Origin: Alphaproteobacteria bacterium
GTDB taxonomy: Bacteria; Pseudomonadota; Alphaproteobacteria; Micropepsales; Micropepsaceae
Direction: 5' to 3'
Length of the DNA stretch: 17,034 bases
NCBI GenBank assembly: GCA_015654715.1
Contig: JAATGK010000463.1
Location: forward strand, 1 to 17,034
Within the stretch, counting starts at the first letter, position 1. Every line of letters starts with the position of its first letter. The notes beneath the pieces are model-generated. The model saw only the letters and a program-made list of their open reading frames with translations. It had not been told where the DNA came from and did not search any database. The position numbers were made by a program, and so were the translations under genes. Shown here piece by piece: positions 962-11,668 of the stretch.

Positions 962-2275
962 TTATCGCCCCAAGTCGGCGGCACCTTCCGGCTTGGCCCG
1001 GATCGAAAGCGTCAGCACCGCGCCAAGCACCATGATGCCGGCCAGCGCATACAAGGCGGGATTGGTGCTGTGGGTGGCGTCTTTGATCCAGCCGACGAAG
1101 TATGGGCTGGTAAAGCCTGCGATCTGGCCGGTGCTGTTGATCAGCGCGAGACCGCCAGCCGCAGCCGTCGCTGTCAGAAAGCGCCCCGACAGCGGCCACA
1201 GCATCGGCAACCCTGTCAGCGCACCCATGGTGGCAAAGGTTAATCCCACCATTGCAATCCATAGATCGGTGGCAAACGAAGCCGCCAGCAATAGGCCGCC
1301 GGCTCCCATCAACAGCGGAATTGCCAGATGCCAGCGCCGTTCCCGCCACGCGTCGGCGGAGCGTCCGGCGAGGATCATGAAAATGCTTGCGGCCAGATAC
1401 GGAATAGCGCTGAGCCAGCCGACGGCCGCCAAATCCTGATGGAGACTAACCTTGATGATCGACGGCAACCAAAAGTTGATCGCATAAACTCCGCTCTGGA
1501 TGCAGAAGTAGATGATGCCCAGGAGCCAGATGGAAGGATTGGTCACCACTTGGGCGAAGGAATCGGCCGCAGTTTTGGGGGTGTTCTTGCGGTCTTCGTC
1601 GAGTTCGTGGAACAGCAACTGCCGTTCGGCGTTGCTCAGCCAACTGGCATTCTCAACGCCGTTGCTAAAAGCCATCAGCACGCCGAACCCGAGCACGATG
1701 GTCGGCGCGCCCTGCAGCAAGAACAACCACTGCCAGGCTTCCAATCCTGCCTGATGGCTGGAAAAGTGCACCAGCATCCAACCCGACAGCGGTCCACCGA
1801 TCACGCCCGACAATGGAATGGCAGCCATGAACTGGGCCATGATCCGCCCCCGCCGGGCCGAAGGAAACCAACGCGTGAGATAAAGCACGATGCCGGGAAA
1901 GAACCCCGCCTCGGTAGCGCCGGTCAAAAAACGGATAATGTAAAAGCTTTCGGCGGTGTGCACGAGCAGCAGACTTGCCGAGAGCGCACCCCACAGCACC
2001 ATGATCAAAGCGAGCCAGCGCCGCGCTCCGACCTTGGACAGCATCAGATTGCTGGGAACGCCGCACAGAATATAGCCGATGAAGAACACACCAGCGCCGA
2101 GCCCGTAAGCGGTTTCGCTCAAATGCAGGTCGTCGAGCATTTGCAACTTGGCGAATCCGACATTCACGCGATCCAGGTAATTGAACAGATAGCAAACGAA
2201 GATGTACGGGATCAGGTGCCAGAATGCCTTGCGGTAGACGGAATCGAGCGCACGCTGGCTGCTGGAGTCGGCCAT
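962..2275 (-). CDS. MFS transporter, anion:cation symporter (ACS) type
   Basis: A 437-residue, 12-helix major facilitator protein of the inner membrane. The N-terminal half carries FNYLDRVNVGFAKLQ (about 31-45) and PSNLMLSKVGARRW (TM2-TM3 loop), hallmarks of the ACS subfamily whose characterised members import organic acids and acidic sugars such as hexuronates, galactonate and tartrate. The ATG at 2275 is preferred over a TTG one codon upstream because AGGAAAGG lies seven bases ahead of it. The gene sits 45 bases downstream of the large hydrolase gene and 72 bases upstream of the GHL6-like gene, so it is probably cotranscribed with both. Given a xylanase in the same operon, (4-O-methyl)glucuronate or another acidic product is a reasonable but unproven substrate. 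Confidence 0.88.
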   Translation of the reverse strand: MADSSSQRALDSVYRKAFWHLIPYIFVCYLFNYLDRVNVGFAKLQMLDDLHLSETAYGLGAGVFFIGYILCGVPSNLMLSKVGARRWLALIMVLWGALSASLLLVHTAESFYIIRFLTGATEAGFFPGIVLYLTRWFPSARRGRIMAQFMAAIPLSGVIGGPLSGWMLVHFSSHQAGLEAWQWLFLLQGAPTIVLGFGVLMAFSNGVENASWLSNAERQLLFHELDEDRKNTPKTAADSFAQVVTNPSIWLLGIIYFCIQSGVYAINFWLPSIIKVSLHQDLAAVGWLSAIPYLAASIFMILAGRSADAWRERRWHLAIPLLMGAGGLLLAASFATDLWIAMVGLTFATMGALTGLPMLWPLSGRFLTATAAAGGLALINSTGQIAGFTSPYFVGWIKDATHSTNPALYALAGIMVLGAVLTLSIRAKPEGAADLGR

Positions 2276-2320
2276 CAAAGTGCCTTTCCTGGAACGCGCA
2301 AATGGGAATGCGACACGGCT

Positions 2321-4930
2321 CTACGACTGTCTTTCCACGACTATGTACGGTAGCGCCGTAAACGCAATGGACAAGCCAGGATACATTACCGCACGCCCGG
2401 CAGCGGTCCGGAAAACGGCATAATACTGGAGCGCGTAAGGCGCCGCAGTGGCCGCCGCAGGAATGGTGCCTTGCCAGCCAGCCGGAGTTTTTGTCATGGC
2501 GAGGCTCTGCCATATCTGCGCTTGATTAACCTGACGATACCACAGTACGGCGCTATCGGCCGGTGCATCGGTCGCGAAGTCGAGCGAGAGATTCTGCCCC
2601 GGCGCGTAATTGGCGGGTGGCAGATGGCGCGCCAATCCCGGCAAAATGGCGACCACGGCTTCGGCGGCGGCAATCGCCTCCGCCAGCTTGGGGTCGGCAA
2701 CGGGCTTAGCGGCCGCCGCCAGCTTTTCAACCGCCGCGATATCGGCGTCGATGAGAGGCAGTTTGTCGACCCAGGCGCCGTGCTCGGTGAGGATGTCGCT
2801 CGACCCGAGGTCGCCGTAGACGCCGTCGGCCGTCGCCACGATGTCCGCCCAGGCTTGCCGCGCCTGACGATATTTTGCCAGCGCCGCGTCTACCGCCCGC
2901 TTGTCGCCGTTTTGCTCGAACAGGGCGAACAGAACACCAGCCCTGAATTTCGCGGCGAAGAAGCGGCCCAGACCAGCAAGAATGCGAATGTCGGTGGCAA
3001 GACACACTGCCTCGACCGATGACGGCGCGCCGACCTCTGCCAACTTCGCGTCGATCTCGGCCGCCAACTGTTCAAGCCAAGTTGCCACTTGAACCGGCGA
3101 ACACTTGCCGCTCGCCTCGCCCTTGAGTTCGCCGGCAAACTCGCGCATCGACGAGAACAACTGCGGATCGAGCGGACCGGAATTCTGGAATACCTTCGGT
3201 GCGAACAAATCGCCGTAAGGATTGGGTGTCGGCTCGCCCGCCATCGGCTGATTCCAATAGACTTCTGGCCAATAGGCATCGCACGCCGCCGACGGCATGT
3301 ACGACGTCGTTATGATCGGCAGGATGCGGCTGGCAAGCGCCAGCGCCTTGTGCAAGGAATCGGTGGGTGAGGCCGCCTCGGTCGGATCGTAAAGGCCGCG
3401 GCCGAGCGTGCGATACCAATCGCCGTATTTCTGCCAGTCCCAGTTCGCCCGCAGCTTGGTTGCGGCATAGCCGCTGCGGTCACCACCCGCGACTGCACTG
3501 CCACGTCGGCCGCGATACGTCAGCGGCTCCATCAAATCCGCACCCCGCGAACCGCAAAAGGCGAACATCTGGCCGTAACGCGCAGCCCATTCCGGATCGC
3601 CCCAGGCCAGAACATGCTGCGTGCCGGGGAAAACGCGATGGCGAATCGTATAACGCCGGCCGTCGCGCAACAAATCGGCAAAGCCGTAGCGGGTGAAGGA
3701 ACGCGAACCTTCGCTCAAAGTCATCAGGCCTTTGCCGACCTGGCCAGGCTTGGGCATGTCGAATTCCCGGATGGCCGCCTGATGATAGGGAACCCCCAGA
3801 TGCTCGGCCCAGTATTTCGGCGCAACGTTCACCGGCATACCGGTCGCTAGCGCGTTGTCGATCATCTTGGTGTCGACGCCTTTGGCGTGCAGATCGATTT
3901 CGATCCGCCGGCCTGCCGCCGGAATGCCGGCGAAGACCGTCTTCCAGAACTCATAGCTGCCTTCCTTGATGCCGCTCTCGCCGTGAAACCGCAGCGACAC
4001 CGAGGACACCGCGGGAAGGCTTTTCAACAGCAGCGTGAGGGCGTCGCGGCAGTACGCGGCGTGATTGTCGGGATTGAGGCCTTCGATAGTCGGAACGCCG
4101 GGCGCGGCAGGCCAGTCATAGCCGTGCATCCACAGACCGAGTTCGAAATCGAGGCCGTGCGCCACCGTCTGCTCGCTGATGAACTTCAGGGTTTCGAGAT
4201 TGCGCGCGCGCTCGGCATCGGGAAGACCGGAAACGCGTACCTTGTATGCCGGCACATCGACCAGGAAGGGATAAGTGAAGAGGAAATAGGAATCGGCGAC
4301 ATGGACGAGCGCATCATAAGCCAAGCCGAAGCACAGATGCAGGCGATTGAAGCGGTTTTCGGCCAGCATCGAAAGATAGACCGGCCACATCGCGCGATCG
4401 TGAAACCAATCCGTGTCGTAGGCCTTGCTGGTGAATTGGCGCATAACGCTGCGCACCGGATTGAACGGTGCACTCTTGAGCGGCGTTGCGAAGGATAGCG
4501 CGGTGGCCGGATCGCTCCGCAACCGAACCGTCAACTCGCGCAGGCCGTACATGAGGCCGCGCGCATCGGCGCCCGTAACCTGCAGCGCCCGGCGGCCCGC
4601 GAGCGTGGCGCCCGCGATGGTAAAGCTTTCCGCTACACCCCGCGCCGCATCGCGACCATCGAGGACGATCGCGAACGCATTCTTGGCACTAGCCTCGACC
4701 TTGGCGTGGTGGGCGACGGCAAAACCGGCAGCCACGAGCGCGGCTTCGAGCGCCTTGACGGCGTGCTGTACCGGCGCGCTTGCCGCTGTTTTGTCGGCAG
4801 GGTGTGTGATGAGCGCAATCGGGCCACGCGAGGCTCCATGCGCCAGCGGTGCAGCGGCTCCAACGGCCGCTCCAGCATAAAGAAATCCGCGCCGGCTGAG
4901 TTTGGTATTCTTGCTTTGCGTCGTCATCAT
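2321..4930 (-). CDS. Tat-exported large putative glycoside hydrolase of unassigned family (GH20/GH67-like N-domain)
   Basis: An 869-residue protein starting at ATG 4930, with AAGAAGG five bases upstream (a second ATG follows directly at 4927). A twin-arginine signal occupies the first 33 residues (LSRRGFLYAGAAVG). Residues 36-140 look like the alpha/beta N-terminal domain shared by GH20 hexosaminidases and GH67 alpha-glucuronidases (GADARGLMYGLRELTVRL). Residues about 155-560 look like a TIM barrel, with ENRFNRLHLCFGLAYD (191-206), LRFHGESGIKEG (313-324; Glu318 a candidate acid/base) and PKYWAEHLGVPYHQ (371-384). An alpha-helical region (about 585-765) and a C-terminal beta-sandwich-like domain (about 775-865) follow. 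I do not see the standard GH67 or GH115 motifs, so the activity is open. Position directly after a GH10 xylanase gene (56-base gap) suggests a xylan side-chain or oligomer substrate. Confidence 0.7.
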   Translation of the reverse strand: MMTTQSKNTKLSRRGFLYAGAAVGAAAPLAHGASRGPIALITHPADKTAASAPVQHAVKALEAALVAAGFAVAHHAKVEASAKNAFAIVLDGRDAARGVAESFTIAGATLAGRRALQVTGADARGLMYGLRELTVRLRSDPATALSFATPLKSAPFNPVRSVMRQFTSKAYDTDWFHDRAMWPVYLSMLAENRFNRLHLCFGLAYDALVHVADSYFLFTYPFLVDVPAYKVRVSGLPDAERARNLETLKFISEQTVAHGLDFELGLWMHGYDWPAAPGVPTIEGLNPDNHAAYCRDALTLLLKSLPAVSSVSLRFHGESGIKEGSYEFWKTVFAGIPAAGRRIEIDLHAKGVDTKMIDNALATGMPVNVAPKYWAEHLGVPYHQAAIREFDMPKPGQVGKGLMTLSEGSRSFTRYGFADLLRDGRRYTIRHRVFPGTQHVLAWGDPEWAARYGQMFAFCGSRGADLMEPLTYRGRRGSAVAGGDRSGYAATKLRANWDWQKYGDWYRTLGRGLYDPTEAASPTDSLHKALALASRILPIITTSYMPSAACDAYWPEVYWNQPMAGEPTPNPYGDLFAPKVFQNSGPLDPQLFSSMREFAGELKGEASGKCSPVQVATWLEQLAAEIDAKLAEVGAPSSVEAVCLATDIRILAGLGRFFAAKFRAGVLFALFEQNGDKRAVDAALAKYRQARQAWADIVATADGVYGDLGSSDILTEHGAWVDKLPLIDADIAAVEKLAAAAKPVADPKLAEAIAAAEAVVAILPGLARHLPPANYAPGQNLSLDFATDAPADSAVLWYRQVNQAQIWQSLAMTKTPAGWQGTIPAAATAAPYALQYYAVFRTAAGRAVMYPGLSIAFTALPYIVVERQS

Positions 4931-4986
4931 TGATGCCTTCTTGGGACAAATCGCCTGGTGAATTGTTCGGGCGGATAGACTGGCCG

Positions 4987-6162
4987 TTACCGACGTACCG
5001 CCGCGGCGGAACGGAAGGCAGCGGCGATCGCTTCGCGCATCTGTTTCGGCCGGTAATTGGGATCGTAAGGCGACGGCCGCTTCAACATACCGTCGGCACG
5101 CGGACCGCGTGTCTGCAACCAGGAATGATGATCCACCATTCCCCAAACCATAATGTAAGCGAGCTCGCGGTACCGTAGCATAAAATCAAAGTACCGCCGC
5201 GTCAGATCGGCAATGATCCGGTCGCGTTCGTCGATATCAGCCGGGGTGCCGTCTTCGCTAACGTCGAATTCCGTAACGGCGAGACGATAGCCCATGGAAG
5301 CAGCACCGTCGAGAAAGGACTTGAACCGGCGTTGCTCCTTGTCGTCGAAGACCATATTGCCGCCGACTTCGCCGCGGCGCCCGTCGCCGATATGGGCCTG
5401 GACGCCGAGGACATGAACGGGCAGCCGCGCCGACTTCATCGAAGACAGCAACGAAAGCACGCCGTCGCAATGGCGCTGGCTGTCCTCGGTCCAGGTCATG
5501 AAATCGTTGTAGACCAGGACGCAGCCCGGAGCCGCTTGGTGGGCAGCGTCATAGGCGATTTCGAACACCGCCGGCCCGAGATAGCGCGAAAACACCGTGT
5601 CGCGCGGCTTTCCGGTCAGCGGATCGATCGTCTCATTGACCACGTCCCAAGTGAAGATGCGCGAACCGTAACGCTTGCAAACCGTGGTGATGTGGTCGCG
5701 CAGCATCCGCTCGGCCTCCGTGGCGGGGCGGGAGCCGAAATCGTAATTGAGAAGCCACTTCGGCATCCGGTCGTCACGGTGCCATAACAAGGTATGGCCG
5801 CGCACCTTCATGGCGTTCTTCTCGCCCCATCCGACCACTTTGTCCCCGCGCTCGAACGCGAACGTCGCGGCGTCGGGCCGAACCACGGTCCATTTAAGCT
5901 CGTTGGAGGGCACAACGATGCTGCATTCCTTGCAATGAATTTTCCGAACGCCTTCATCATCGAAAGAGCCCGATACCGAAGTGCTTTTCGTCGAACCGAT
6001 GCAGCTGCCGAACCCCATCAATCCTGCCGCCTTGGCCAAGGCATCCAAGGATTCATCCGATGAAGCGGGTGGTGAAGCCGGCAAAGTTTCGGCGACAGCC
6101 GGTACCACACCGGCCGCCGCCATAAGGCCCAGCCAGCCTCGTCGCGAGACGTCACTTGCCAT
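4987..6162 (-). CDS. GH10 endo-1,4-beta-xylanase, Tat-exported
   Basis: A 391-residue glycoside hydrolase family 10 enzyme that cleaves internal beta-1,4 bonds of xylan by a retaining mechanism. The barrel runs from about residue 40 to 385. Visible landmarks are VRGHTLLWH (120-128), the acid/base region WDVVNETID with Glu177, the VQAHIGD strand (254-260) and the nucleophile region LAVTEFDV with Glu298. Length is normal for a single-domain GH10, with no carbohydrate-binding module. ATG 6162 is chosen because it places a twin-arginine signal (SRRGWLGLMAAAG) at the N-terminus; an in-frame GTG at 6201 would put 13 residues ahead of it and begins inside the terminator-like hairpin. The Shine-Dalgarno is weak (GGA eight bases upstream). 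The gene lies 68 bases after the receptor gene, behind that hairpin, so its level may be set by read-through. Confidence 0.95.
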   Translation of the reverse strand: MASDVSRRGWLGLMAAAGVVPAVAETLPASPPASSDESLDALAKAAGLMGFGSCIGSTKSTSVSGSFDDEGVRKIHCKECSIVVPSNELKWTVVRPDAATFAFERGDKVVGWGEKNAMKVRGHTLLWHRDDRMPKWLLNYDFGSRPATEAERMLRDHITTVCKRYGSRIFTWDVVNETIDPLTGKPRDTVFSRYLGPAVFEIAYDAAHQAAPGCVLVYNDFMTWTEDSQRHCDGVLSLLSSMKSARLPVHVLGVQAHIGDGRRGEVGGNMVFDDKEQRRFKSFLDGAASMGYRLAVTEFDVSEDGTPADIDERDRIIADLTRRYFDFMLRYRELAYIMVWGMVDHHSWLQTRGPRADGMLKRPSPYDPNYRPKQMREAIAAAFRSAAAVRR

Positions 6163-6173
6163 AGAGGCATTCC

Positions 6174-6223
6174 AAAAAAAGAGAAAAGAAGTGGCCGGCA
6201 CGGGGAGGAACTATGCCGGCCAC
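6174..6223 (-). terminator. Strong intrinsic-terminator-like hairpin between receptor and xylanase genes
   Basis: Perfect 10-bp arms (6214-6223 and 6191-6200; GTGGCCGGCA and its complement) enclose a 13-base loop. On the minus strand they are followed by a T-rich tract (6190-6174) ending in seven Ts. It begins seven bases after the receptor stop codon and ends 11 bases before the xylanase start. The loop is pyrimidine-rich and contains CCTCC, which resembles an anti-Shine-Dalgarno sequence. It should end or attenuate most transcripts after the receptor gene. Confidence 0.8.
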
Positions 6224-6230
6224 CTCGCTA

Positions 6231-9200
6231 TTACCAGTTCGCCCGAACGCCGATGGTAAAATACCTACCGACGGCATCGTACAGGAGCTGGTTGGCACCA
6301 CCCAGAGACTTGGCCGACATGAAGTAAAGGCCAGGGTTGGTACCATTGATCGGATCCACCGGCGGACGCGTATTGCCGATGTTCTGGACCGAAATGTAGA
6401 AGTCGGCCACCGAGTCAGCCGTAAGCTCGATCCTCCGGTCCACGGTGGCATCAAGATAATTGACCGATCCGACCGTCGGATCGGCGTAGATCTGGGTGAT
6501 CGATTGCAGCTTGGAGTAGCTGCTGAACCAGCGGTCCTGCAGACTGATGTCCCAATCGCCGAAAGCGTAATCGAAGAAGCCTGTGATATGCCCCTTCGGA
6601 TAGGACGTGAGCGTTATCGGCGCCCCGGCGTATTGCGTGCTCTCGTTGACCGGCTGGTAATTGGCCAGCAGACGCAGCTTCACGGCACCAGGTATACCGC
6701 TGACGAGATCGGCCGGGTTGAAGCCGTAGTTCACTTCGAAGTCGAAGCCCTCCAGAGTCTGATTGGCGGCGTTCAGACTCATGTTGTAGATGCGCGACAC
6801 GAAATTCGCTGGCGAGGAGTCGCTGAACGGCAGCGGGCGGACATACAAAGCACACAGCGGCGAGGTGCCGCCGGAAGATTCGCAGGTTGCCTTGACCGCC
6901 GCTGAGGACGCCGACAACGAGGTAATCGCGTTCTTCAGCGTAATATTATAGTAGTCCACCGACGCTGACAGATCCGACAGGAACGTAGGCGTGAACACGA
7001 TGCCCGCGGTGTAGGTGCGAGCAACCTCTGGCACCAGCGCGGCATTGCCCTGCTGGTACATGTTGACGGGTTTGGTCGGATTGCTGCAAGGCGTCGCGCT
7101 GCAGTCGAGCACATGGATGTCGGTGAAGGTCTGCGGCGAGACTTGCACCGGCGCATACAGATCGTTCAGTGTGGGTGCCCGGATGTCGACGGAGTTTGTG
7201 GCACGCAGCCGGAAGATGTCGTTGATGTGCCAATCGACGCCGATCTTCCAGGTCTCGACTGATCCAGACGTCGAATAGTCGGTGTAGCGGCCCGCGGTGT
7301 TCATCGACAGGTTCTGCACGAACGGCACGTCCTTGACCAATGGAATGTCAAGTTCGGCCGCGAACTCATAGACGTTCTCGCTGACCGGAGCCAACGCCGC
7401 ACCGACATTGCTGTTGTACAGCAGGGTGGAAGTGCCGCAGAGGCGGAGACCAGTGCAGTCCACTGTCGCGGTGGGAGACGCATTGCTCTGGACTTCATAG
7501 CTCTGCCAGCGTGATTCCGCGCTCAACGCACCTTTCACCGTTCCGGCGGGCAAATCGAACAGATCGCCGGAGATGCTGCCGCCGACGTCGTCGAGCTCAT
7601 TCTTGAGCACCATAAAGGTGTCCACGGCGAGGTAATTCGCCATCGACTGTGTCATCGTGCCGGGACCAAACACGTTGAGCGGAACGCAGTTCGCATACTG
7701 CGCGGCGGTCGCCCCCTGCGTAGCCGCGTAGCAAGCCGGAGTGCTGCCGCCAACCAGAACCGCGTCCTCGGCTGCATACAGGCGTTGGTTGTTGATGTTG
7801 GTCGGGTCGTCAATCTTCAACCGCGCCAGATCGTGGGTGTAATAGACGTCCCAGTCGAACTTGCCGAGCAGCGTACCTTCGAAGCCGGTCGTGATGGTCA
7901 CGTTGTCCGCCATGCCGTTGGTCTGGAAGCCGTCATGCGGCCCGCGGACCATGAACTCGGCGAGCTGGAACGCGTTGTTGGTCAGGGTGCCGTTGTTGCC
8001 GAGCGCGGTCTGCGCCGCCGGCGTCAGGAAGGCGTTGTTTTTGAAGAACGTGTTAGGTGTCGTGATGCTGGTTGGCGAACCACCGGTATTGAGCGACCAA
8101 TTGGTGAAGCCCGCTTTGTCGGCGCTTTGCGTGCCCGCCGCCTGGACATAGAACGTCGTCGAATCGTCGATGTTGTAGCTGAAACGACCGAACGACTCAT
8201 AGGTTGTCAGGCCAGCGGTGATCTGGCTGATGGTGTCGTAGATGCCGTCGCCGCCGCTCGAGATACCACTCGTGCCGGTCGCCACCCCGGGATTGAACGG
8301 ACCGATGACGCCCGGTGAGGAAAATTGCATGCCGTTGGCGTTGACGCCGCCCACCGTACAAGTACTGCAGGTGATCCTGCCCCCGAACGCATAAAGCGAC
8401 TGGCGCGCATTGTCCGTTGTGGTGAACGGGCGTTGGGCGCTGCCGTCGCCGGTAAGCAAGTAATAATGGGGCCCTTCCGGACGCGCGTTGTGGGGAATGC
8501 CCTCGGAGCGGAAGAACTGCACCGCACCTTCGACGTGGCCGCGGCCACCGAACAGATCAGTACCCGCCGTCAGACCGACTTTATAAGAAAGCCCGTCGCC
8601 GTAGCTGGAGATGCCGCTGTTCGCATCGACTTTGATACCGGAAAACTTCTTGTCGAGAACGAAGTTTACGACGCCGGTGACGGCATCGGAACCGTAAACG
8701 GCCGAGGCGCCACCGGTGACCACGTCAACCCGGCTGATCAGGGCTTGCGGCAGGGTGTCGATATCGACCGTGCCGTCGGCGTTGGTCGGCGCCACGCGGC
8801 GGCCATCGAGCAGGATCAGGGTGCGCTGCGCGCCGAAATTGCGCAGATTAAGCACGTTGCCCGCGGTGTTCATCGAGGCATTATTGATGGCGCGCGGATT
8901 GTTCGAGCCCTGGAATATCGGCAGCTTGTTCAACGCGTCCGGCATATTGCTGGGCGTGTTCATCTGCAGCTGTTGGGCGCTCACAACGGTCAGCGCCGTC
9001 GGCGAATTCGAGGAATCGGAGATAACGCGCGAGCCCGTCACGGTGACGGTTTCAAGCAAGGCGCCGCTGCCATCGCCGGTGGGAACATTCTCTTTCGTAG
9101 CCGGCACATTGGCCTGTGCCACCACCATCGCGCTGGCGGGCTGGAGCAGTTCGCTGCGGGAGCCGTGGCGCCTGGACACAACCACCGCACCACTACCGTC

Positions 9201-9473
9201 GCGCAGAGCGTGCACGCCGGTTCCTTGCAGCAGCAAGTCGAGGGCGTCGGCCGGGTTGTCTGCGTTGACAACGGCGTGGCTCCTAACGTTGTTGACGTCA
9301 TCAACCCGATATAAGAGCTGAACACTCGACAGTTTCACGTACTGATCGAGCGCCGACTTAAGATCCATCGATGGAATCGTGATGGCCTGCTCGGCGGCCA
9401 TGCTTCCTGTTGCAAAAACAGCGAAGCTAGCTGCGCTCAGCAAGGCGCATCTATACCCTTTGGTTCCTAGCAC
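6231..9473 (-). CDS. TonB-dependent outer-membrane receptor with N-terminal STN signalling domain
   Basis: A 1080-residue TonB-dependent receptor that would bring a bulky ligand, here probably xylo-oligosaccharides, across the outer membrane. The start is set at GTG 9473 because AAGGGG lies five bases upstream and the frame then opens with a Sec signal peptide (to about residue 26, GSMA/AEQ). An upstream in-frame GTG at 9557 would bury that signal. An STN domain spans about residues 28-100, a TonB-box-like ETVTVTG lies at 141-147, and a plug domain covers about 155-275, including SAVYGSDAVTGVVNFVLD. The rest is beta-barrel, ending in an aromatic residue (GVRANW). STN domains contact FecR-type regulators, and a FecR gene and an ECF sigma gene lie immediately upstream. 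The ligand is inferred from the downstream xylanase gene. Confidence 0.93.
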   Translation of the reverse strand: MLGTKGYRCALLSAASFAVFATGSMAAEQAITIPSMDLKSALDQYVKLSSVQLLYRVDDVNNVRSHAVVNADNPADALDLLLQGTGVHALRDGSGAVVVSRRHGSRSELLQPASAMVVAQANVPATKENVPTGDGSGALLETVTVTGSRVISDSSNSPTALTVVSAQQLQMNTPSNMPDALNKLPIFQGSNNPRAINNASMNTAGNVLNLRNFGAQRTLILLDGRRVAPTNADGTVDIDTLPQALISRVDVVTGGASAVYGSDAVTGVVNFVLDKKFSGIKVDANSGISSYGDGLSYKVGLTAGTDLFGGRGHVEGAVQFFRSEGIPHNARPEGPHYYLLTGDGSAQRPFTTTDNARQSLYAFGGRITCSTCTVGGVNANGMQFSSPGVIGPFNPGVATGTSGISSGGDGIYDTISQITAGLTTYESFGRFSYNIDDSTTFYVQAAGTQSADKAGFTNWSLNTGGSPTSITTPNTFFKNNAFLTPAAQTALGNNGTLTNNAFQLAEFMVRGPHDGFQTNGMADNVTITTGFEGTLLGKFDWDVYYTHDLARLKIDDPTNINNQRLYAAEDAVLVGGSTPACYAATQGATAAQYANCVPLNVFGPGTMTQSMANYLAVDTFMVLKNELDDVGGSISGDLFDLPAGTVKGALSAESRWQSYEVQSNASPTATVDCTGLRLCGTSTLLYNSNVGAALAPVSENVYEFAAELDIPLVKDVPFVQNLSMNTAGRYTDYSTSGSVETWKIGVDWHINDIFRLRATNSVDIRAPTLNDLYAPVQVSPQTFTDIHVLDCSATPCSNPTKPVNMYQQGNAALVPEVARTYTAGIVFTPTFLSDLSASVDYYNITLKNAITSLSASSAAVKATCESSGGTSPLCALYVRPLPFSDSSPANFVSRIYNMSLNAANQTLEGFDFEVNYGFNPADLVSGIPGAVKLRLLANYQPVNESTQYAGAPITLTSYPKGHITGFFDYAFGDWDISLQDRWFSSYSKLQSITQIYADPTVGSVNYLDATVDRRIELTADSVADFYISVQNIGNTRPPVDPINGTNPGLYFMSAKSLGGANQLLYDAVGRYFTIGVRANW

Positions 9474-9522: not shown

Positions 9523-9555
9523 GCGTTTCGTAAGACGAACAAACGACGAAATTCC

Positions 9556-9574
9556 ACCGGGCTAATTGCCCGGT
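9556..9574 (-). terminator. Hairpin overlapping the FecR stop codon; possible terminator or attenuator
   Basis: ACCGGGC and GCCCGGT arms (7 bp, perfect) surround a 5-base loop. The structure includes the last base of the FecR stop codon. The following minus-strand sequence GGAATTTCGTCGTTTG is only moderately T-rich, so termination may be partial. It would separate the sigma/FecR transcript from the receptor transcript. Confidence 0.45.
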
Positions 9575-10521
9575 TAGTTAGAAATCACAATTGTGTCGTC
9601 GGTTTCCGTCACGCTCAGTCCAAAGCCCTCCCTGATAAGCTGCGAAAAAGCGCTGACATTATTGATGCGGAAGCTGCCGCCGATGCGCAGATTTCGCGCC
9701 TCACCTTTGACGATGATCTGTTTGACGCTATAGCGATTGAACTGAGCAGCGGCGTCGGCCAGTGTCTGTTGATCGAAAACCAGCAAACCGCTTCGCCAGG
9801 CGAGATCCTCGTTGACGGCCCGTTGGGCCTTCTTCATCACCAGCGTCTCACCAGCCTTCGCAATGACGGCGTCGTTCGCCTTGACCAGTACCGATGCGCT
9901 CTGGCGTTTTTCGCTGGGGACGTCAACGCGAACCTGCCCTTCACTGACCAGGACCTTGACCTGGTCTCCTTCGCGGCGAACGGAGAACTTTGTCCCAATG
10001 TCGACGATCTGCCTGTCGCCAGCAATCACGACGAACGGACGTTTCGGGTCATGCACAACATCGAAATAGGCTTCGCCGCGCTCAAGCACAATCATACGGT
10101 GCTTGGGCGTGATCTTGGCATGCAAGCGTGTGTTGGTATTGAGCTCGACCTTCGTGCCGTCCGCGAGTTGAATTTCCCGCTGCTAACCGACCGCGGTAGC
10201 GTAGCCACCGCGCTGCAAACCGAATTGGTAGTACAGCCCACCGCAAATCACGACAGCCAGCAGCACCGCCGCGATTGCGCGAAAGTTGGACTTGGTGGCC
10301 CAGCGGCGGAGCAGATGCTGCGTCTCTACACCCGGTGCCCGCAGAGCCCCCAGACGGTCGGCCTGGCGCCAAGCATGTTGGAGCCTGAGATAAATCACGC
10401 GATGCAGATCCGATTCCGCAAGCCATGCCTCCATAGCGGCCTGGCCGGCGGGATCTAAACCTTCGTCCTCTCGCGCAATCCACCGAGCGGCACATTCCTG
10501 GATGCTGTCGAACCGGCTCAT
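9574..10521 (-). pseudogene. FecR-type anti-sigma/sensor gene interrupted by an in-frame TAG
   Basis: The frame encodes 315 residues with normal FecR architecture. It has a cytoplasmic N-terminal domain (DUF4880-like, about 8-60), one transmembrane helix (about 81-101), the periplasmic FecR domain, and a C-terminal STN-like segment (from about LVFDQQTLADAAAQF). Codon 113, at 10185-10183, is TAG. It falls right after YATAVG, where family members usually carry Glu (T-x-V-G-E), so GAG to TAG is the simplest explanation. Both sides remain in one frame with no other damage. The N-terminal piece (112 residues) keeps the anti-sigma domain and membrane helix but loses the receptor-sensing part. The periplasmic half has no good restart; the nearest is a TTG at 10125. 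The ATG overlaps the sigma gene stop (ATGA). Alternatives are read-through or an assembly error. Confidence 0.85.
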
Positions 10522-11105
10522 TGACTGGTATGCCCCAACTTCTTTTTCCGGCGCGCGATCATCATGACCGCTCCCTTATGCCTGCCATAGATCGCTTCGG
10601 CCAGAAGCCGCACCGCCCTGACAACTTGGTGCTCCACGATGACTTCACTGACCCCCATCTGCTGTGCGATCTCCCGTTGGGAATAGCCTTCCACCTTCTT
10701 CATCCACACGATCTGGCGGCATCTTTCCGGCAAAGCATCCAGTGCCAACTGCAGCGCCCTGAGTTCCTGGCGTGCGGAGACCTGACGTTCCGGATCCAGT
10801 TCGTCAGTAATAACGAGCGTCTGGTCGATATCCGCCACGGTTTCGATCGAAACGACGCTGACGCGCCGCAATTTGTCGATCATCAGGTTGCGGGCAGTGG
10901 CAAACAGGAACGCCTTGATCTGGGCGGGACGCTCGTGCCGCGCCGATTCGTAGACCCGGGCATAGGTCTCCTGCATCAGATCGTCGATCTCAGCATGGTC
11001 GTGCCATTTGCGGCGCAAATAGCGGACGAGATCACCTTCCAGCGGCAGCACTTGCTGCACAAACCAGCGGCCGAGATCGTCTGCGCAAAGCTTCCCAACC
11101 AACAT
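10518..11105 (-). CDS. ECF-type RNA polymerase sigma factor (FecI-like)
   Basis: A 195-residue extracytoplasmic-function sigma factor. Region 2 (about 25-82) contains DDLMQETYARVYE and AFLFATARNLMIDKLRR. Region 4 (about 120-172) contains ALDALPERCRQIVWMKKVEG and a helix-turn-helix, YSQREIAQQMGVSEVIVEHQ. There is no region 3, as expected for this class. ATG 11105 has GGGAG close upstream. The stop codon overlaps the FecR ATG by four bases, so the two are translationally coupled, typical of sigma/anti-sigma pairs of the Fec type. Its expected targets are its own operon or the receptor-enzyme operon downstream. If FecR is truncated, activity may be ligand-independent, because truncated FecR cytoplasmic domains in the Fec system can hold the sigma factor active. 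Confidence 0.93.
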   Translation of the reverse strand: MLVGKLCADDLGRWFVQQVLPLEGDLVRYLRRKWHDHAEIDDLMQETYARVYESARHERPAQIKAFLFATARNLMIDKLRRVSVVSIETVADIDQTLVITDELDPERQVSARQELRALQLALDALPERCRQIVWMKKVEGYSQREIAQQMGVSEVIVEHQVVRAVRLLAEAIYGRHKGAVMMIARRKKKLGHTSQ

Positions 11106-11592: not shown

Positions 11593-11668
11593 TGGTGCCC
11601 AGGGGCGGAATTGAACCACCGACACGCGGATTTTCAATCCGCTGCTCTACCATCTGAGCTACCTGGGC
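11593..11668 (-). tRNA. tRNA-Phe (anticodon GAA)
   Basis: A complete 76-base cloverleaf on the minus strand. The acceptor stem GCCCAGG pairs with CCTGGGC, followed by discriminator A and an encoded CCA. The D-arm is GCTC/GAGC. The anticodon stem GCGGA/TCCGC holds the loop TTGAAAA, giving anticodon GAA. The T-arm GGTGG/CCGCC holds the loop TTCAATT. It reads phenylalanine codons. The glycan-use locus begins downstream of its 3' end. Confidence 0.98.

Follow-up and report, generated by a model that had tools for sequence, protein, structure and literature searches.

The gene for a FecR-type regulator in a six-gene locus of an alphaproteobacterium (family Micropepsaceae) is interrupted by one in-frame TAG, and the truncated product (FecR1-112) would end shortly after its membrane helix. 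We tentatively propose, at somewhat less than even chances, that this is a recent and real nonsense codon in fecR, that FecR1-112 constitutively activates the partner sigma factor, and that the receptor–xylanase genes of the locus run without a xylan signal. This proposal combines four premises, and we infer each of them: the base is real, the fragment is stable, the fragment activates rather than inhibits the sigma factor, and xylan is the signal. The stretch analysed (the window, 17,034 nucleotides) is a whole contig (GenBank JAATGK010000463.1, assembly GCA_015654715.1); the genome to which it belongs comprises 3.13 Mb, is split into 518 contigs, and is 74% complete and 4% contaminated.

Translated, the minus-strand frame from 10521 to 9574 gives a FecR-type regulator of 315 residues with no interruption other than the TAG. 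Its parts are the following:

10183..10521, minus strand: fecR codons 1–112 plus TAG, encoding the sigma-binding cytoplasmic part, one membrane helix and a short tail
10183..10185, minus strand: the in-frame TAG, codon 113, at the start of the FecR domain
9574..10182, minus strand: the remainder of fecR, codons 114–315 plus TAA, encoding the FecR domain and a FecR_C-like end, open and undecayed

The FecR domain (PF04773) spans the stop with a score of 82 bits (cut-off 24), indicating that the frame is not due to chance, and it still matches the part comprising codons 114–315 with 74.8 bits (Pfam). Two flanking matches are weak, namely FecR_C (PF16344) in the part after the stop (20.6 bits, below the cut-off of 24.4) and DUF4880 (PF16220) in residues 1–112 (23.0 bits, below the cut-off of 25). 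Hydropathy reaches its maximum (2.03) at residues 82–100, the one membrane helix separating the two parts of FecR, so that about 12 residues remain behind the helix when translation ends at codon 113; because the FecR domain lies almost wholly 3′ of the stop, the translated product would lack it. Used as a protein query, the frame matched 2314 proteins, and the comparisons below draw on the best 120 of them; labels attached to a few hits (Rhizomicrobium sp., Alphaproteobacteria and, in one case, Mucilaginibacter) hint at an alphaproteobacterial source. An initial annotation of the locus had described a FecR-like protein, complete except for the TAG, with the stop just past the transmembrane helix, and the domain matches, the translation, the hydropathy profile and the number of matching proteins agree with it on each of these points. 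In the database, perfect matches to the broken gene come from two pieces annotated on the contig itself, P0121 (112 aa) and P0006 (173 aa), the latter beginning at residue 143.

The interrupted gene lies in a compact locus whose order on the minus strand is sigma factor, fecR, receptor, GH10, 941-aa protein and MFS transporter:

10518..11105, minus strand: ECF sigma factor, FecI-like (Sigma70_r4_2 54 bits, Sigma70_r2 46 bits)
6231..9473, minus strand: TonB-dependent receptor (Plug 69.7 bits, barrel 78.4 bits)
4987..6201, minus strand: GH10 endo-xylanase family protein (Pfam GH10 228 bits)
2321..5146, minus strand: frame of 941 aa, without a Pfam family, weakly like an alpha-D-galacturonidase model
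962..2278, minus strand: MFS transporter (MFS_1 164 bits)

The end of the sigma gene overlaps the start of fecR by 4 bases. The receptor gene likely begins with a GTG at 9473, preceded by AAAAGGGGAAACCA as read by eye, and the match to its N-terminal STN domain is weak (23.9 bits, below the cut-off of 28.4). The true start of the 941-aa protein probably lies inside its frame; the protein has weak matches to BPa0997 structures and, judged by sequence, could possibly represent an undescribed family of uronidases acting on xylan side chains. The MFS transporter is nearest to the D-galactonate transporter subfamily (TIGR00893, 305 bits, below the cut-off of 395). A tRNA-Phe gene occurs upstream of the sigma–fecR pair, at window positions 11593–11668.

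One genome of the same genus (G010) contains all six genes in the same order, with a fecR frame free of stops and, as in the window, an ECF sigma gene adjoining fecR, a feature of FecIRA-type systems. Identity to G010 is 73% for the sigma factor (over 166 residues), 60% for FecR, 74% for the receptor, 77% for GH10, 69% for the 941-aa protein and 75–79% for the MFS transporter, which aligns in two pieces. A search of the genome contigs with the receptor yielded one relative, at 25%.

Between fecR and the receptor gene lies a further candidate feature:

9532..9555, minus strand: ECF-type promoter-like element, GGAATT-N12-CGTCTT

The form GGAAYT-N12-CGTCWT occurs behind fecR in both the window and G010, at nearly equal distances past the fecR stop (offsets 21 and 20). 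Among 17 fecR loci, GGAANT-N12-CGTC is present within 190 bases behind fecR in four (the window, G010 and two loci of the window's own genome, L076 and L077) and absent from 13; in none of the 17 do GGAANT and CGTC stand at a spacing between 8 and 18 other than 12. The stretches compared do not all lead into a receptor gene. Shuffled sequences gave a mean of 0.006 loci of 17 against the four seen, and the mean chance value was 0.01 per window; since the pattern was written after the sequences had been seen, these values are not independent tests. For a looser form, 0.94 occurrences would be expected in the window and three are present. The element supports, without proving, the prediction that the sigma factor drives the receptor–xylanase genes.

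In the matches compared, the stop is confined to the window. Among 87 FecR-like matches in 18 genomes (61 searched), only the window's own is interrupted: one of the 12 in its own genome and none of the 75 in others. The five nearest proteins among the best 120 (P0001–P0005) are full length and 60–73% identical, the closest non-self protein being 73% identical, so that the nearest relatives, with which the initial annotation had called for a comparison, carry an unbroken FecR, as does G010. A tree was built from 51 rows, namely the window, 12 genome loci and 38 of the best 120 proteins. In it the window groups with P0001 and P0002 (support 100/99), and these three join P0003–P0005 and G010 in a seven-member group (support 93/99). 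A search with the 112-aa piece matched only itself among 42 candidates, the same truncation being absent there from other assemblies, and neither this search nor that with the whole frame found a second assembly of the species. The best hit of the 112-aa piece among solved structures had an E-value of 0.38, which is not meaningful. In one paper linked to FecR and nonsense mutation, the fecR change named is a missense change.

Downstream of the stop we found no trace of relaxed constraint, in line with the earlier claim that there is no other decay. Sixty columns after the stop are at least 95% conserved among 118 full-length relatives; the window changes none of them, against a mean of 0.54 per relative, and 80 of the 118 relatives also leave all of them unchanged. 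With P0003 as outgroup, 10 changes 3′ of the stop are specific to the window and 15 to P0001 (9 and 14 with P0004, 7 and 11 with P0005), hence no rise in rate; for the first 80 residues the numbers are 4 and 8 (outgroup P0003). If the stop is a mutation, it would be too young to have left any trace; on sequence evidence, a very recent mutation, an erroneous base and translation that continues past the TAG would each fit.

Which codon the TAG replaced cannot be told, because column 113 varies widely. The initial annotation had matched the site to a family pattern T-x-V-G-E and concluded that GAG had changed to TAG. The pattern stands as far as the glycine: among the best 120 of the 2314 matched proteins, 118 have T at 109 and 119 have G at 112, the one remaining protein being the window's own C-terminal piece, which does not cover columns 109–113. 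It does not extend to the glutamate. At column 113 the same 120 proteins have Q in 38, R in 21, A in 20, E in 9, K in 9, G in 7, T in 5 and H in 4 (7 not printed), and the nearest relatives have E (P0001, P0002 and P0004) or Q (P0003 and P0005), which leaves the specific ancestral codon GAG without support.

The undecayed 3′ part is also what would be expected if the TAG were suppressed or read through, some full-length FecR being made with the truncated form as a side product. We consider this very unlikely, since TAG terminates 98 of the 339 frames that exceed 300 codons in 49 stretches of the genome (the window included), the genome encodes release factor 1, and none of the 24 tRNA genes found in this 74% complete genome has a CUA anticodon. 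The same three observations weaken the earlier suggestion of read-through as a programmed trait. Genome-wide recoding of TAG was rejected on these grounds.

A working two-piece FecR, with residues 1–112 complemented by a separately started periplasmic piece, is suggested by the 173-aa database entry, and it would require an internal start. Possible restarts all lie at least 20 codons past the stop; by eye, inspecting up to codon 199, none of the start codons at 133, 143, 145, 156 and 165 has a convincing ribosome-binding site. Moreover, the C-terminal piece would begin within the FecR domain and has no membrane segment, its highest 19-residue hydropathy being 0.98. A split gene shared by relatives, which had been named as the case that would overturn the idea of a truncation, was not seen in any of the 75 FecR-like matches from other genomes. 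Based on the lack of a plausible start, of a membrane segment and of any such split elsewhere, a functional split fecR was rejected, and we regard it as extremely improbable.

A base error, or a base from a minority strain, is a far more serious alternative: the living population would then have an intact FecR and normal regulation. To gauge it, five families were screened in the window's own genome, comprising 12 FecR, 36 ABC, 50 receptor barrel, 39 MFS and 32 SDR matches. Stops were found in 5 of these 169 domain matches, of which only fecR and an ABC-F type ATPase have clean mid-gene stops; in two MFS rows the alignment seems, from the DNA, to overrun the natural gene end, and the fifth row, SufC, has its stop next to a contig end. 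With just 2 of 169 matches interrupted in this way, the assembly is not riddled with stops. A wider screen for mid-gene stops in 437,547 unmasked bases of the genome flagged 6 places under strict and 12 under looser settings, and by eye only fecR and ABC-F resemble real mid-gene stops, the others looking like gene junctions or non-coding frames; no stop rate can be derived from this screen because the contigs with the fecR and ABC-F stops were chosen for holding them.

The ABC-F type ATPase (locus L107, contig C49, near 4088) has a clean in-frame TAA directly before its Walker A motif. In sufC (locus L078, contig C164), an in-frame TAG lies four codons short of where the contig ends and is probably an end-of-contig error. 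In four better genomes of the same genus, none of the ABC matches listed has a stop (177 in total, the weakest left out).

A base error is thus consistent with the fragmentary and partly contaminated assembly, with further stops inside conserved genes of that assembly (ABC-F and SufC), with the complete absence of decay 3′ of the stop, and with the failure of the protein searches to recover the same stop in a second assembly. Against it stand the rarity of clean mid-gene stops in the five-family screen and the unbroken frames elsewhere in the window (sigma factor, receptor, GH10, 941-aa protein, MFS, FadL-like and RNase E/G). The assembly has a few suspicious stops, and we judge a base error to be nearly as likely as a real allele, and itself also somewhat below even odds.

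If the base is real, our analysis points to a locus that is uncoupled from its receptor and switched on as the likeliest effect. In that case, a point mutation would very recently have introduced a nonsense codon into the fecR gene of a conserved cell-surface-signalling xylan locus, and the cell would make a FecR1-112 with the sigma-binding N-terminus and the membrane anchor but without the periplasmic part that would contact the receptor. In alignment, residue 112 falls opposite residue 116 of E. coli K-12 FecR, so that the fragment, in which the sigma-activating N-terminus remains but the periplasmic part is gone, stops at the position equivalent to a tested E. coli truncation. Tryptophans W14, W33 and W51 align with E. 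coli W19, W39 and W50, the match to W50 depending on a 7-residue alignment gap. The genome encodes one RseP-type protease.

Precedents for activation are described in the accessible text of several papers. Chromosomal nonsense mutants of E. coli fecR (codons 82 and 202) transcribe fec without ferric citrate, and plasmid-borne FecR59, 61, 65, 68 and 116 turn on fecA-lacZ in the absence of a signal, which FecR46 and 56 are reported not to do (PMC9249621); this literature contains the precedent that the initial annotation had invoked for short E. coli FecR fragments acting without signal. RseP converts FecR121, which is missing nearly all of the periplasmic part, into a small N-terminal fragment (PMC8144685). 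Among signal-independent clones of IutY, 39 of 46 had premature stops, and short anchored IutY truncations were dependent on RseP and independent of Prc (PMC5411451). Because FecR1-112 is the counterpart of FecR1-116 and short anchored fragments of this kind are RseP substrates, the anchored fragment would most likely yield the sigma-activating N-terminus constitutively, as an RseP substrate, and the receptor–xylanase genes would in consequence run without a xylan signal.

A real nonsense allele could also have another outcome, in which FecR1-112 is degraded or inhibits the sigma factor in the manner of FpvR and the locus is off or basal. FpvR of P. aeruginosa is a case in point: its N-terminal fragment inhibits FpvI and PvdS (PMC9249621), and truncation need not therefore mean "on"; in E. 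coli, FecI requires FecR for activity (PMC9249621). The position opposite E. coli L13 is Q8 here (E in the intact FecR of G010, with an adjacent I in both), and L13Q in E. coli FecR abolishes induction (PMC9249621). FecR101 gave only a single band (PMC8144685), suggesting that very short tails may escape processing, and the 112 residues retained here fall between the E. coli lengths tested for RseP processing, FecR101 and FecR121. The Q8 counterpart of L13, the inhibition by FpvR and the single band of FecR101 call for caution about the constitutive reading, the FpvR inhibition above all. Nevertheless, activating truncations are reported for FecR, FoxR, FiuR and IutY (PMC5411451, PMC9249621), and the activating segment has all three of its conserved tryptophans, so we consider an inactive or repressed locus unlikely.

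From what these sources describe, the truncation of a FecR regulator is an already known kind of event, which would here have occurred at a telling position. The E. coli FecI-FecR-FecA system has the same order of sigma factor, FecR and receptor, a 4-base overlap of sigma gene and fecR, the three tryptophans and the truncation counterpart at FecR residue 116. However, it serves ferric citrate transport, whereas the present locus is a carbohydrate locus (GH10, a second hydrolase-like protein and an MFS transporter), and the E. coli truncations were made in the laboratory, while this one occurs in a wild assembly and its activity is predicted from sequence. P. putida IutY and P. aeruginosa FoxR and FiuR likewise lost their periplasmic part and reportedly gained signal-independent sigma activity, through RseP in the case of IutY; they differ in that IutY is a sigma/anti-sigma hybrid, the alleles come from screens or constructs, and the systems are for iron (PMC5411451). 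In the wild strain Stenotrophomonas maltophilia KJ, one premature stop interrupts a FecIRA-type operon that is intact in the reference strain, but the broken gene is the receptor, not FecR (PMC12772443). In Xanthomonas campestris CUT loci, a TonB receptor lies beside xylan-related genes, whereas the fecI/fecR pair is linked to iron rather than to the xylan locus (PMC1790865).

A stronger form of the proposal, that selection in a wild bacterium has produced a permanently "on" xylan locus by a stop recreating the E. coli FecR1-116 allele, strikes us as improbable. Should the stop be a base error, it would warn against inferring regulation from single bases in fragmentary assemblies. If it is real, it would be a wild case of the easiest "on" switch that a laboratory screen found for cell-surface signalling, the removal of the periplasmic half of the regulator, and would carry this rule over from iron to the use of plant polysaccharides. 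In either case, the window appears to encode a compact xylan system that includes an unclassified 941-aa protein and is probably sigma-regulated.
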